Shown: positions 40,878-45,386 of the stretch, one piece after another
How the letters are laid out: each line of letters opens with the position of its first letter
Position numbering within the stretch: the stretch's first letter is position 1
Origin: Candidatus Methylomirabilota bacterium
GTDB lineage: Bacteria; Methylomirabilota; Methylomirabilia; Rokubacteriales; CSP1-6
NCBI GenBank assembly: GCA_035709005.1
Contig: DASTFB010000074.1
Coordinates: forward strand, 1-64,000
DNA length: 64,000 nucleotides
Direction: 5' to 3'
Notes under the pieces: generated by a model
What the model saw: the letters and a program-made list of their open reading frames with translations, nothing else
What the model was told of the DNA's origin: nothing
The model's database searches: none
Translations under genes and position numbers: made by a program

Positions 40878-42980
40878 TCAGCCGACCGAGGCCAGGGCGA
40901 GCTTGCCGCGCCAGCGGGCGAGCAAGCCTTCGCGCAGGGCGCGGTGCTCCGGGTTCCGCAAATCGGGGTCGACGGCCACCAGAGCCTGGGCCTCGCGTCG
41001 CGCCTCCTCGAGCAGCGGCGCGTCCCGCAGCAGGTCGGCGACGCGGAACTGGGGCAAGCCCGACTGGCGGGTGCCGAAGAACTCGCCGGGCCCGCGAAGC
41101 TGCAGATCGACTTCGGCGATACGGAAGCCGTCCTGGGTGGCCACCATGGCCTCGATCCGGCGGCCAGCGTCGTCGGTAAGGTGGCCGGCGTGGAGCAGGA
41201 TGCAGTAGGACTTCCAGGGCCCGCGCCCCACGCGCCCGCGTAGCTGATGGAGCTGGGACAGCCCGAAGCGCTCGGCGTGCTCCACCAGCATGACGGACGC
41301 GTTGGGCACGTCGATGCCCACCTCGATGACGGTGGTGGAGACGAGCACGTGGATCTCGCCGGCCTTGAACCGGCGCATGATCCCCTCTTTCTCCTCGAAG
41401 CCCAGGCGCCCGTGCAGGAGGCCGACGCTGAGATCGGGAAAGACCTCGCGGGCCAGACGGCGGGCCATGTCCGTGGCTGCCTTGAGGTCGACCGCCTCCG
41501 ACTCCTCGACCAGGGGATAGACGACGTACACCTGCCGTCCCCCCTTCACCTGCTCGCGCAGAAACCGGTAGATCTCGCTGCGCTTGGTCTCCGTCCGCGC
41601 GACGGTCTTCACCGGCCGGCGACCCGGGGGCAGCTCGTCCAGCACGCTCACGTCGAGGTCCCCGTACAGGGTCAGGGCCAGCGTCCGCGGGATGGGGGTC
41701 GCCGTCATGACCAGGAGGTCCGGCTGCTCGCCCTTGGCCTTGAGCCGCGCGCGCTGGGCCACCCCGAAGCGATGCTGCTCGTCCACCACGGCCAGCCCCA
41801 GCCGGCGGAACTCCACGGCCTCCTGCACGAGCGCGTGAGTGCCGATGACGCAGGCGATGCGACCGGCGGCCACCTCGGCGCCGCGATCGGCGCGCTCACG
41901 CGCCTTCACCGATGCCGTCAACAAGGTAGTGGGAATGCCGAGGGGCTCGAGCAGTCGCCGGAACGTCAGGAAGTGCTGCTCGGCCAGGATCTCGGTCGGG
42001 GCCATGACGGCCGCCTGATGTCCAGCCTCCACGGCGGTGAGCACGCCGAGCGCGGCCACGACCGTCTTGCCCGACCCCACATCGCCCTGCAGCAGTCGGT
42101 GCATGGGTGCCGCCGCCGCCATGTCGCGGCGGATCTCCTCCCAGACGCGCTCCTGCGCGCCCGTGAGCGGCCACGGCAAGGCCGCCCGCAGCCGGGCCAC
42201 CAGGGTTCCTGGCGGGTCCATGACGATGCCGCGCGCGCGCGCCGCACGGGACTTGAGAATGGCCAGCCCCAGCTGAAGAAACAGGAAATCGTCGAAGGCG
42301 AGGCGCCGCCGGGCCGCCGCCTGCGCCTCTTCGGTCTCCGGGAAGTGCCCATCGCGGATAGCGACCGGCAACGACACCAGCCGTCGCCGCCGGCGCACGG
42401 GCTCGGGAAGGATTTCCGGGACGTCCCCGACGAACCGCTCCACCAGGCTGCTCATGAGCCGGCGCAGCGGGCGCTGGGTGAGCCCCTCGGTCGTCGAGTA
42501 CACGGGAACCAGGCGGCCCGTGTGCAGCCGGTCCTCGTCGTCGTTGTCGACGATCTCGAAGTCGGGATGCTGGAGCGTGATGACGCCGCGGAACCGGCCC
42601 ACGCGGCCGTGCAGGACCAGGCGCTGGCCGCGCTTGAGGACCCGCCCCAGATACGCCGCCCGGAACCAGCTCGCCGTGACGAAGCCGCTGTCATCACGCA
42701 GGACGGCTCGGAAGGGCACCCCCGGGCGCCCGGGTGGCGGGGGGCTCAGTCCGACGATCACGCCGGAACAGGTCTGGGCCTGTCCGGGCTGGAGCTTCTG
42801 GAACAGGGTGAGCCGCGTGCGATCCTCGTGGCGCAGGGGCACGAAGAACAGGGCGTCTTCCACGGTGTGGAGCCCTTTTCTGGCCAACAGCGCTGCCCGA
42901 TGCGGCCCTACGCCTTTGAGATACTGCAGCGGCGTGGCGATAGCCGCCGCGGGCGATGTTTGCGTCATCCCGTGGGCCAT
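40878..42980 (-). CDS. recG: ATP-dependent DNA helicase RecG
   Basis: 700 residues. The N-terminal wedge/OB region begins TPLQYLKGVGPHRAALLARK. Helicase motifs: LLQGDVGSGKTVVAALGVLT (I), MAPTEILAEQH (Ia), VVDEQHRFGVAQR (II, DEQH), VMTATPIPRTLAL (III) and LRGRVGRG (VI). RecG reverses stalled forks and branch-migrates junctions. It is divergent from rpmB; the rpmB promoter overlaps its start. Confidence 0.97.
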   Translation of the reverse strand: MAHGMTQTSPAAAIATPLQYLKGVGPHRAALLARKGLHTVEDALFFVPLRHEDRTRLTLFQKLQPGQAQTCSGVIVGLSPPPPGRPGVPFRAVLRDDSGFVTASWFRAAYLGRVLKRGQRLVLHGRVGRFRGVITLQHPDFEIVDNDDEDRLHTGRLVPVYSTTEGLTQRPLRRLMSSLVERFVGDVPEILPEPVRRRRRLVSLPVAIRDGHFPETEEAQAAARRRLAFDDFLFLQLGLAILKSRAARARGIVMDPPGTLVARLRAALPWPLTGAQERVWEEIRRDMAAAAPMHRLLQGDVGSGKTVVAALGVLTAVEAGHQAAVMAPTEILAEQHFLTFRRLLEPLGIPTTLLTASVKARERADRGAEVAAGRIACVIGTHALVQEAVEFRRLGLAVVDEQHRFGVAQRARLKAKGEQPDLLVMTATPIPRTLALTLYGDLDVSVLDELPPGRRPVKTVARTETKRSEIYRFLREQVKGGRQVYVVYPLVEESEAVDLKAATDMARRLAREVFPDLSVGLLHGRLGFEEKEGIMRRFKAGEIHVLVSTTVIEVGIDVPNASVMLVEHAERFGLSQLHQLRGRVGRGPWKSYCILLHAGHLTDDAGRRIEAMVATQDGFRIAEVDLQLRGPGEFFGTRQSGLPQFRVADLLRDAPLLEEARREAQALVAVDPDLRNPEHRALREGLLARWRGKLALASVG

Positions 42981-42988
42981 GCTATAAG
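42960..42988 (+). promoter_or_regulatory. Sigma-70-like promoter of rpmB
   Basis: TTGCGT (42960-42965) and TATAAG (42983-42988) are 17 bp apart, about 45 nt before the rpmB ATG, which has GAGGGG as ribosome site. The -35 box overlaps the first codons of divergent recG. Confidence 0.55.
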
Positions 42989-43032
42989 CAGGGGCTGCCG
43001 TACGGCGACCGATTCATACCCGAGGGGTAACC

Positions 43033-43224
43033 ATGGCTCAGCGGTGCGACGTCTGCGGGAAAGGGCCCGCGGTCGGCAATAGCGTCAGCCACGCGCACAA
43101 GCTCACGCGGAGGCGCTGGCTGCCCAACCTTATTTCGATGCGGGCCATGGTCGCCGGCAAACCGCAGCGCGTTCGCGTGTGCACTCGCTGTCTCAAGGCG
43201 GGCAAGGTCACCAAAGCTATTTAA
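43033..43224 (+). CDS. rpmB: 50S ribosomal protein L28
   Basis: 63 residues. [20 protein letters not shown], then TRRRWLPNL and [14 protein letters not shown]. The two CxxC pairs show the zinc-binding (C+) form. A monocistronic gene with its own promoter and a hairpin downstream. Confidence 0.97.
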
Positions 43225-43241
43225 AGCACCAGGGGCACAAA

Positions 43242-43267
43242 CGGGAGGGGGCTTTCGCCCCCTCCCG
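43242..43267 (+). terminator. Bidirectional 11-bp hairpin after rpmB
   Basis: CGGGAGGGGGC (43242-43252) pairs with GCCCCCTCCCG (43257-43267) around TTTC. It lies between rpmB and the convergent micro-ORF/AbiEi operon. It is flanked by 14-bp direct repeats CACCAGGGGCACAA at 43227-43240 and 43300-43313. Confidence 0.6.
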
Positions 43268-43315
43268 GTCCAGTTGCAAGGTGGGAGGCCGCCACCCCCC
43301 ACCAGGGGCACAACC

Positions 43316-43354
43316 CTACTTCTTCTTTTTGCCGGCCTTTTTCTTCTTGGCCAT
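43316..43354 (-). CDS. Lysine-rich micro-ORF 2 (12 residues)
   Basis: ATG at 43354 to TAG at 43316 encodes MAKKKKAGKKKK. An almost ideal ribosome site, AGGAGGTGA, lies 7 nt before the ATG, better than most genes in the window. It is a near copy of micro-ORF 1, about 55 nt upstream, which supports selection for the peptide or its translation. The region of about 160 bases between micro-ORF 1 and the rpmB hairpin holds nothing else. Function unknown; a basic nucleic-acid-binding or ribosome-pausing peptide is conceivable. Confidence 0.4.
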   Translation of the reverse strand: MAKKKKAGKKKK

Positions 43355-43408
43355 GTGCGCTCTCACCTCCTCTCGCCGTGGAGTGCTCGTCGGCTCTTGT
43401 TGTCGGCC

Positions 43409-43447
43409 TTACTTCTTCTTCTTCTTGGCCGCCTTCTTCTTGGCCAT
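43409..43447 (-). CDS. Lysine-rich micro-ORF 1 (12 residues)
   Basis: ATG at 43447 to TAA at 43409 encodes MAKKKAAKKKKK. A purine-rich site (AGGGGGGTGA) precedes the ATG by about 9 nt. It begins 29 nt after the AbiEi-like stop, so it is probably on the same mRNA. Micro-ORF 2 repeats the same peptide pattern. Alternatives are a decayed histone-H1-like tail or a low-complexity coincidence, but two copies each with start, stop and ribosome site argue for function. Confidence 0.4.
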   Translation of the reverse strand: MAKKKAAKKKKK

Positions 43448-43476
43448 GGACGGGTTCACCCCCCTTCCTCTCACCC

Positions 43477-44526
43477 TCAGTAGCCCATCGCTTCGCGGCG
43501 CAGATGCTCGGCCTGCTCCGCCCCCCTGCGCTCGTAATGCAGGAGGTCGACGTAGAGCTGGGGCAGGCACACGACCTTGAGGCCGGCCTTCTCCAGCGCT
43601 CCGTGGAAGACGCCAGGATCGTAGGGGGTGAGCAGGTACAGCCCTCCCTCCCCCTCCGTAGTCGGCCGCAGTCCCAGGGCCGCGGCCACCGGGGCCGGAT
43701 CACCTTCCAGGTAGCAATGCACAGCCGGGATCCGGATGTGCGGCGCCACCAGGGAGAGCCCGGCATTGAGCGAAAAGGCGTAGCGCTGGCCCGCCGCCGT
43801 GGCGGCTCGGGCCACCTCGCCCATGAACGTGCGGGTGACGCGCGCGGGCACGAAGTAGGACGAGAGCTCGTTCTCCCGATAGGTGTAGGACTCGCCCCAG
43901 TTCTCCAGCAGGTCGGCGGGCTTGGCGAGCCGGATCCGCTGCCGATCGTCGTGCTCGACCCAGGCCAGCTCCTCGAGGCGCTTGATGACGTTGTGCGAGT
44001 GGCCCAGGCTGACCCCGGCGGCCCGGGCCAGCTCCTCCAGCTTCCAGGCGCGCCCGGGCTCGGCGAGAAGAACACGGACCACGCGGGTCGCCCGCGGCGC
44101 GAACAGCGACCGGAGGGGGCGGGTCGACGGCCGGATGTTCCGCTTGCCCTCCTTCTCGATATGGACGTTCTCCAGGGCGAGGTAGCAGTTGCCGGACAGA
44201 TCGATGTAGCCGAGGTTGTTCGACTTGAGGATGCGAGCGCTCTGCGGGCCGATGTACACGGCGGTAGCCATCGGATAGGCCGAGGGCAACTCCCTGCGGA
44301 GCTCGCTCAGCCGCGTGACGGCAGCCCGGATCTGCCGGGGCTGCCCCAGGGAGCAGACCTCAAGCACCAGGCGGTGCTCCTGCTCGCCGAGCCGGAACGT
44401 GACCTGCAAGTCCGCGGTCTGGTTGCCCACCTGTACATCGGTTGCTTCCGACCAATCCTTTGCTCTCGGGAAGATTTCCCGCAGCCGTTGAGCCGCCTGC
44501 CGCCGAATCTCCCCGGATTTCAGCAT
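43477..44526 (-). CDS. AbiEi-like (type IV antitoxin family) winged-helix protein, orphan
   Basis: 349 residues. The N-terminal half (about 1-130) has a nuclease-like layout (VTFRLGEQEHRLVLEVCSLG, then GQPRQIRAAVTRL, VYIGPQSARILKSNNLGYID, LSGNCYLAL), with Cys where restriction-like folds usually have the catalytic Lys (ExK). A winged helix follows (about 145-200: RVVRVLLAEPGRAWKLEELA, AGVSLGHSHNVIKRLEELAW) and a C-terminal AbiEi-type domain. No AbiEii nucleotidyltransferase toxin is nearby. A palindrome between promoter and start suggests autoregulation. Two lysine-rich micro-ORFs follow. Confidence 0.7.
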   Translation of the reverse strand: MLKSGEIRRQAAQRLREIFPRAKDWSEATDVQVGNQTADLQVTFRLGEQEHRLVLEVCSLGQPRQIRAAVTRLSELRRELPSAYPMATAVYIGPQSARILKSNNLGYIDLSGNCYLALENVHIEKEGKRNIRPSTRPLRSLFAPRATRVVRVLLAEPGRAWKLEELARAAGVSLGHSHNVIKRLEELAWVEHDDRQRIRLAKPADLLENWGESYTYRENELSSYFVPARVTRTFMGEVARAATAAGQRYAFSLNAGLSLVAPHIRIPAVHCYLEGDPAPVAAALGLRPTTEGEGGLYLLTPYDPGVFHGALEKAGLKVVCLPQLYVDLLHYERRGAEQAEHLRREAMGY

Positions 44527-44545
44527 GTTTCGCTTGCCCCATCCC

Positions 44546-44592
44546 TTTCAGCATCTGCTGAAACCATAAGGAATGTTGAAAGTGGCTGTCAA
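44546..44592 (-). promoter_or_regulatory. Promoter and palindromic operator of the AbiEi-like gene
   Basis: On the minus strand TTGACA (44592-44587) and TTATGG (44569-44564) are 17 bp apart. Directly after the -10 box is a perfect inverted repeat TTTCAGCA-GA-TGCTGAAA (44546-44563), and a half-site TGCTGAAA recurs at the start codon. A repressor bound there would block initiation, as known for AbiEi autoregulation. The rest of the 188-nt gap up to 44714 shows nothing further. Confidence 0.6.
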
Positions 44593-44714
44593 GAGGAAAG
44601 TTTTCGGCGTGGCCTAGAACACTCCGGGAGTTGGACCTGACACCCGACGCGGCAGTGGCGAAATCCGAGGGCATCCAGAGTTGTTAAAACGAATCATGTG
44701 GTAGCTTTTAAGAA

Positions 44715-45386
44715 GTGCTGCTACTCTCGGACGCATTGGCCCACTTCCGCTATCCGCAATTCTGCGCCCTGGCCCGGGCGGCCGAGGTCGTGGGCGAGCG
44801 CTGGACGATGCTCGTCGTCCGCGAGCTGCTGCTGGGGCCGCGGCGGTTCAGCGACCTGCGTGAGCGGCTGGACGGCATCAGCGCGAGCGTCCTGACCGAG
44901 CGCCTCGCCCGCCTGGAGTCCGGGGGCCTCGTTGTCCGGCGCGCCCTGGAGCGCCCGGCCCCGGCGGTCGTCTACGAGCTGTCCGAGACGGGACGCGGCC
45001 TGCAGCCCGCCGTGTCCGCGCTGCTGCGGTGGGGAGCGCGGTTCCTGCTGCCGGCTCGTCCCCGGGAGCGGGTGGAAGCCGACTGGCTGCGGCTGGCCTT
45101 GAGCGCGTGTGCGCGGCGGGAGCCGACCCTGGAGCGCGCATTTGTCCTGCGCATCCGGGACCGGCGCGTCGAGGTGCTCCTGAGCGTGGTCGGTGGGCCG
45201 GGCGGCACCCGCGTGAGCGACCAGATCGAACCGTCCGGCGTCACGGTCGTCGCCGACCCGGCGACGTTGTGGGCCCTGATCAGCGGGACCTTGAGCGCCC
45301 GGGTGGCCCAACGCGAGCGGCGGGTCGAGCTGACCGGCGACGCGCAGGCCCTGGAGGCGTTGCCCGCCCTGTTCGAGGTCGGCTAG
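44715..45386 (+). CDS. HxlR-family transcriptional regulator with C-terminal SCP2-like domain
   Basis: 223 residues from a GTG. The winged helix (about 10-105: QFCALARAAEVVGERWTMLV, VRELLLGPRRFSDLRERLDG, SASVLTERLARLESGGLV) is HxlR. The C-terminal half (from about 125) ends in TLWALISGTLSARVAQRERR, like sterol-carrier domains often joined to HxlR. Its stop TAG lies inside a 19-bp repeat that recurs at 48583. It is upstream of the second TAXI/TRAP pair on the same strand and may control it. Confidence 0.85.
   Translation: MLLLSDALAHFRYPQFCALARAAEVVGERWTMLVVRELLLGPRRFSDLRERLDGISASVLTERLARLESGGLVVRRALERPAPAVVYELSETGRGLQPAVSALLRWGARFLLPARPRERVEADWLRLALSACARREPTLERAFVLRIRDRRVEVLLSVVGGPGGTRVSDQIEPSGVTVVADPATLWALISGTLSARVAQRERRVELTGDAQALEALPALFEVG

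Follow-up and report, generated by a model that had tools for sequence, protein, structure and literature searches.

Conserved lysine-rich micro-ORFs behind an AbiEi-like gene in Rokubacteria: candidate genes for polycationic microproteins

Within the window that we analysed (the whole stretch of DNA under study, 64,000 nucleotides), two very short open reading frames, ORF1 and ORF2, lie behind an AbiEi-like gene. Read along the minus strand, the order of elements is promoter, palindrome, AbiEi-like gene, Shine-Dalgarno (SD) sequence, ORF1, a second SD sequence, ORF2, two hairpins and finally the convergent rpmB gene (Table 1). ORF1 begins 29 nt after the end of the AbiEi-like gene, and the two ORFs, which are in different reading frames, encode 12 residues each, eight of them lysines. 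The SD sequence of ORF2 matches the complement of the usual 16S 3′ tail over nine bases, as compared to 0-6 bases in the nine larger genes of the window that were checked. Apart from the micro-ORFs, the interval between the AbiEi-like gene and rpmB contains no same-strand gene and no AbiEii gene, and Rfam returned no match up to E=1 for positions 42900 to 44800. A first-pass annotation of this DNA had described two tandem 12-residue lysine-rich ORFs with start, stop and ribosome site, and they are present as described, on the minus strand. It had also placed them ahead of a hairpin, which indeed lies 3′ of ORF2, though there are two hairpins at this position rather than one.

Table 1. Features of the micro-ORF locus, with positions in the window
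Feature	Position	Strand	Remarks
rpmB (ribosomal protein L28), convergent, outside the operon	43033..43224	+	Pfam Ribosomal_L28, 2.3e-22
Terminator-like hairpin common to the operon and convergent rpmB	43242..43267	.	from folding
Conserved RNA hairpin GGTGGGGGGTGGCGGCCTCCCACC, 24 nt, 10 bp	43280..43303	-	3′ of ORF2
Micro-ORF2 MAKKKKAGKKKK	43316..43354	-	ATG 43354, TAG 43316
ORF2 Shine-Dalgarno sequence AGGAGGTGA	43363..43371	-	8 nt 5′ of ATG
Micro-ORF1 MAKKKAAKKKKK	43409..43447	-	ATG 43447, TAA 43409
ORF1 Shine-Dalgarno sequence AGGAAGGGGGGTGA	43456..43469	-	8 nt 5′ of ATG
AbiEi-like regulator gene, 349 aa	43477..44526	-	Pfam AbiEi_2, 26.4 bits (cut-off 21)
Palindrome TTTCAGCAGATGCTGAAA, putative AbiEi-like operator adjoining the -10 box	44546..44563	.	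exact in 19/30 loci
-10 box TTATGG (predicted promoter)	44564..44569	-	17 nt past the -35 box; conserved spacing
-35 box TTGACA	44587..44592	-	same place in 28/29 loci with upstream DNA; exception L021, TTGACG

The AbiEi-like gene is itself a conserved part of this arrangement; it was matched in 34 of 35 sampled relatives from the family. A structural model of its product (pLDDT 88, pTM 0.61), which gave matches to NucS/EndoMS and to IclR/MarR-like proteins, combines an N-terminal domain of nuclease-like fold, for which NucS/EndoMS is the best match, with a winged helix and an AbiEi_2 region at the C-terminus; the NucS/EndoMS-like fold covers residues 1-125. The palindrome in front of the gene is near-identical in nearly all of those of the 30 loci that lack an exact copy, and it abuts the -10 box in relatives too. 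In the 4.6 Mb genome it occurs once, even when one mismatch is allowed. AbiEi has been reported to bind inverted repeats at its promoter and to repress its own expression (PMC3985639), and a single-copy palindrome abutting the -10 box is the layout expected for autorepression of this type. Judging from this layout, the AbiEi-like protein probably represses its own promoter via the palindrome.

What sets this locus apart from the AbiE type IV toxin-antitoxin systems is the second gene. The upstream gene has the AbiEi_2 domain and the winged helix of the antitoxin, as well as a promoter inverted repeat, but no AbiEii nucleotidyltransferase follows; the next cistrons are the lysine micro-ORFs. 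Furthermore, the locus is single-copy and vertically conserved beside rpmB. AbiEi paralogues in the class (33-38% identity) have behind them a nucleotidyltransferase gene whose similarity to AbiEii/NTP_transf_8 is weak and sub-threshold, and these paralogues lack a lysine micro-ORF. Hence, the conserved gene is toxin-less by comparison, with the micro-ORFs in the place of the toxin. Several Methylomirabilota (L204-L211) carry complete AbiEi-AbiEii-like pairs besides the toxin-less core gene. One could thus imagine that the lysine peptides took over from the AbiEii toxin the role of partner or effector to the AbiEi-like protein, in a toxin-antitoxin-like or stress module. The near-universal linkage of the two in Rokubacteriales is in line with this, as are the toxin-bearing paralogues without micro-ORFs and the resemblance of the promoter palindrome to the inverted repeats bound by AbiEi. 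However, lysine micro-ORFs occur alone or by unrelated neighbours elsewhere, Rokubacteria included, and the chromosomal, single-copy and vertically inherited locus is unlike mobile toxin-antitoxin modules, such that we regard an AbiE-derived module as rather improbable. The first-pass suggestion of a partnership with the toxin-less AbiEi-like gene therefore holds for the linkage within the order and for the position of the micro-ORFs, which is that of AbiEii, whereas a dedicated AbiEi partner as a general rule is ruled out by lysine micro-ORFs that lack any AbiEi-like neighbour.

For the micro-ORFs themselves, conservation was assessed in 95 genomes with the pattern GGTGA-N4-18-KKKAxKKK-stop, i.e., an SD sequence followed by the lysine-rich peptide and a stop codon, and with the same pattern reversed as a control. 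The pattern matched in 55 of 57 genomes of the window's Rokubacteria family, in all three genomes from other families of the order and in three more of the class; the reversed control matched in 0 of 95. In the 4.6 Mb genome of the window there are two matches (reversed control, 0), and both lie at the ORF1/ORF2 locus. The two misses in the family likely have ordinary causes, a differing arrangement and an incomplete genome: G022 has lysine ORFs in another arrangement, and G034 is 64% complete and has no AbiEi match. In relatives, the AbiEi-like gene is followed by one or two such ORFs, lysine-rich and 10-14 codons long, which adjoin rpmB and have GGNGGTGA ribosome sites; GGNGGTGA is kept at the SD position of ORF1, and the distance from GGTGA to the start codon of ORF2 is 7-9 nt in all 46 variants. 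Peptides and ribosome sites, on the conservation of which the first-pass annotation had let its proposal depend, are thus both kept across relatives, and this supports its view of the ORFs as encoding basic effector peptides.

Selection acts on the residues. Counted along minimum spanning trees, single-base codon changes were synonymous in 93 of 106 cases pooled over all variants, where about 25% would be expected (p = 5e-42, which is nominal because of the tree-based counting). The excess was seen in ORF2 (32/40 changes, 46 variants), in ORF1 (35/41, 30 variants) and at a second locus described below (21/22, 21 variants). The spanning-tree counts were preferred over raw all-pairs counts, in which shifts in the position of alanine inflate the non-synonymous changes. 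Replacements were mostly A/K, K/R and A/T, and nearly all residues past the start codon are K, A, T, R, G or S. The length varies between 10 and 14 residues and the Ala/Thr position drifts between variants, as for a peptide that would be selected for its charge and not for a fold. Furthermore, the AAG fraction of the lysine codons is 0.90 in the genes of the window, 0.88 in high-GC micro-ORFs and 0.46 in low-GC micro-ORFs. The choice of lysine codon tracks the GC content of the genome, and it is therefore the residue that is conserved and selected, not a run of codons.

The synonymous excess expected of a protein-coding microgene is present, and these comparative data show that ORF1 and ORF2 are genuine conserved coding genes under selection at the amino-acid level. 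Together with the conserved peptides and SD sites, this argues for the real translation that the first-pass annotation had proposed. We give hardly any credence to low-complexity chance ORFs or a decayed remnant of a longer lysine-rich protein, even though slippage can yield purine-rich AAG runs and ORF1 and ORF2 differ in frame, as the pieces of a broken gene would. Each copy has its own SD sequence, start and stop family-wide, in addition to the synonymous excess and the clean controls, and the reversed control pattern together with the codon test rules out chance or slippage ORFs.

Of the hairpin GGTGGGGGGTGGCGGCCTCCCACC downstream of the micro-ORFs, a search of 60 genomes found a single copy in each of 33, all of which belong to the window's family. 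Across its 12 variants 99% of cells pair, and two pairs show double changes; the support from covariation is moderate, with few variants and 12-19 of 500 shuffles scoring as high. The usual G.U pair of this hairpin would be a C.A mismatch on the opposite strand. Since the G.U pairing exists on the minus strand only, the pattern of pairing suggests that the hairpin most likely acts at the RNA level, within the micro-ORF transcript, where it could protect the 3′ end, terminate transcription or bind the peptide. In other families of the order this position is taken by different hairpins. The terminator-like hairpin next to it is kept in close relatives and replaced by other hairpins in distant ones. 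An anti-terminator pairing of the 3′ arm of the conserved hairpin with the 5′ arm of the terminator (CCUCCC:GGGAGG) was considered as well; it is possible in close relatives but is unconserved in distant ones, where the terminators differ. The 5′ arm of the conserved hairpin (GGTGGGGGGTGGCGG) could form a two-layer G-quadruplex, a possible target of a lysine-rich peptide.

Many Rokubacteria carry a second, unlinked lysine micro-ORF locus, which is a unit of its own. It consists of a conserved TTGACA-N17-TAGCAT promoter, a leader, the SD sequence GGAGGTGA exactly 4 nt 5′ of a GTG or ATG, a lysine ORF, and a terminator-like hairpin of the form CGGCCCTGTCG...CGGCAGGGCCG, and upstream of it lies a conserved CCCC-A-TAT-TTGGA-TTTT stretch. 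At the second loci L033-L061 and L080-L184, an element of the CCCC-A-TAT-TTGG type, sometimes present twice, is found 5′ of the TTGACA like a regulator site. As read from translations, the neighbours are radical-SAM or NrdR-like genes in most cases and a pyrE-like gene in one genus, and no same-strand gene at this locus is obviously co-transcribed. A pattern search detected no stand-alone second copy in the genome of the window. A stand-alone unit without a co-transcribed gene is the strongest anatomical argument for a peptide that acts in trans.

The hairpins and the second locus bear on the main rival explanation, a cis element. According to this, translation of the lysine run behind a strong SD sequence would slow or park ribosomes in the 3′ part of the abiEi-like mRNA and, together with the hairpin, set mRNA stability or termination, while the peptide would be irrelevant. 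The strong anti-SD matches would suit such a role, as would a hairpin that is conserved above any linker and paired on the minus strand, and two studies are reported to have found that cationic and iterated-lysine stretches are translated slowly (PMC4363877, PMC9207662). However, there is no downstream same-strand gene in the operon to regulate, the stand-alone locus has another hairpin and no co-transcribed gene, the codons follow genome composition rather than forming AAA runs, and K to R changes are tolerated. Furthermore, ordinary U-tract terminators lie 3′ of several micro-ORFs outside Rokubacteria, e.g., L119, L173 and L176. We thus consider ribosome pausing in cis to be unlikely, and less likely than a polycation acting in trans. 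Amino-acid attenuator leaders resemble the micro-ORFs in having a very short ORF, a strong SD sequence, a run of a single residue and downstream hairpins. They differ in that a same-strand structural gene stands behind their terminator/antiterminator, whereas here only convergent rpmB follows; in addition, the micro-ORFs have stand-alone copies, and selection acts on the residue and not on a regulated cistron. The leader-like role that had been offered as an alternative at first pass is accordingly weakened, given also a second locus that runs from promoter to hairpin only and lysine codons that track composition.

The distribution of lysine micro-ORFs extends beyond Rokubacteria. A scan of GTDB genomes gave at least 117 matching stretches; among the matches listed, at least 69 carry a micro-ORF of up to 16 residues, at least 40 of these in Rokubacteria and close relatives and at least 29 elsewhere. 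The other lineages among the matches listed include Nitrospirae, Chloroflexi, Verrucomicrobia, Levybacteria, FCPU426, Eremiobacterota, Eisenbacteria, Brocadiales, Woesearchaeota and Aenigmatarchaeota. In Nitrospirota, Chloroflexota, Verrucomicrobiota, Patescibacteria and Woesearchaeota, among others, lysine micro-ORFs of 10-16 codons sit at positions specific to the lineage, and in several lineages the neighbour recurs: lpxC in Nitrospirae, mutS in Verrucomicrobia, UDG in Chloroflexi, secA in Levybacteria, ftsK in FCPU426 and tatD in Woesearchaeota (the assignments of LpxC, UDG, SecA and TatD were checked with Pfam, those of MutS and FtsK come from reading the sequence). The strict pattern matched in 2 of 198 genomes in the phylum of L119, with one match of the reversed control, such that phylum-wide conservation by this pattern is unsupported. 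Beside lpxC in this phylum, a loose scan found lysine ORFs of 13-20 residues with an SD sequence at 9 of the 30 loci, including that of the starting genome, and no lysine ORFs once the same 98 kb had been put through a mononucleotide shuffle. A phage origin was considered and set aside, with only 8 of 2.9 million contigs matching the pattern. Homology between phyla is unprovable for sequence of such low complexity, and a convergent origin is possible.

The composition of the peptides is reminiscent of the tails of ribosomal proteins. Together with the adjoining rpmB in Rokubacteria and the conservation in nearly all genomes of the family, this invites the idea of a tiny ribosome-associated peptide or ribosomal protein, in which a lysine-rich extension that binds rRNA has become a separate gene. 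Very small basic ribosomal proteins exist in bTHX and eL41, which are likewise tiny and strongly basic, but these have about 25 residues and a fixed sequence, and the micro-ORFs show no sequence likeness to them past charge. The neighbours in other lineages listed above are non-ribosomal, the occurrence is patchy outside Rokubacteriales, and a defined rRNA site would call for a tighter length and sequence; in view of this, a ribosomal role seems quite improbable.

Our preferred reading, which we hold to be modestly probable, is that ORF1 and ORF2 encode polycationic microproteins, the last cistrons of an AbiEi-controlled operon, that act in trans on a polyanion. The expression level, the release of the peptide, its polyanion target and AbiEi autorepression are what we infer for this operon. 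The AbiEi-like protein would control the promoter, the strong ribosome sites would provide for efficient translation of the terminal micro-ORFs, and the stable hairpin would protect or end the mRNA. Because 12 residues are shorter than the ribosome exit tunnel, the peptide would be released whole and could then act in trans, as a disordered polycation with nucleic acid (nucleoid DNA or structured RNA) or a different polyanion, e.g., polyphosphate, as its binding partner. It would be the functional equivalent of a minimal histone-H1-like tail or of a genetically encoded polyamine. The near-invariant hairpin and the very strong SD sequences could point to an additional role of the RNA or of translation as such.

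The closest parallels in composition are histone H1-like proteins (Chlamydia Hc2/HC2, the C-terminal KPAA tails of Pseudomonas AlgP and PhaF), which are likewise Lys/Ala-rich, disordered and polycationic, with repeats of variable length. For AlgP, tail peptides bind DNA and the protein localises to polyphosphate granules (PMC9239181; PMC2848022). Unlike the micro-ORFs, which are complete products of 10-16 residues with their own ribosome sites and often in tandem, these are proteins or domains of 165-350 residues with long repeats. Longer forms of the lysine-rich genes, with KKKAA-type repeats of 19-100 residues, occur in Patescibacteria, Planctomycetota and other lineages. The 12-mers are too short for a profile scan; a 93-residue KKKAA-type protein scored E=0.033 against Pfam HC2 (histone H1-like nucleoprotein), which stays below the cut-off for a match, and four longer forms had no match in NCBIfam.

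We put forward, as a suggestion that falls somewhat short of probable, that these genes belong to an overlooked class in Bacteria and DPANN archaea, namely stand-alone, near-pure polylysine micro-genes of 10-16 codons that would be a counterpart of polyamines. The class would be near-universal in Rokubacteria, with one copy in an AbiEi-type autoregulated operon where it replaces the toxin, and its longest forms would grade into histone-H1-like repeat proteins. Our literature search found no description of the peptide strings or of lysine-rich bacterial micro-ORFs, and no family model was found. Such genes would rank with the smallest independent, conserved protein genes on record; they fall below the common length cut-offs of gene callers and so are probably absent from annotation. 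Their order-wide conservation, with own promoters and terminator-like hairpins, makes it a testable question whether short encoded polycations manage nucleic acid or other polyanions. The locus also presents a case of an AbiEi-type antitoxin gene that persists vertically while its toxin is missing and a new companion stands beside it.

Two further observations concern loci in Nitrospirae and in another Methylomirabilota family. At L119, L127, L191, L101 and L183, the genes directly 5′ of the micro-ORFs encode DNA-binding proteins, with matches to an ArsR-like winged helix (weak) and to HARE-HTH (3.8e-10), which echo the winged helix of the AbiEi-like protein. Furthermore, two soil Nitrospirae (L101 and L183) have in common a CCCCTCTAGCATCGCGTG-TGGGGGC-AGGCC hairpin 3′ of the micro-ORFs, a conserved element distinct from the hairpin of Rokubacteria but in the same position.
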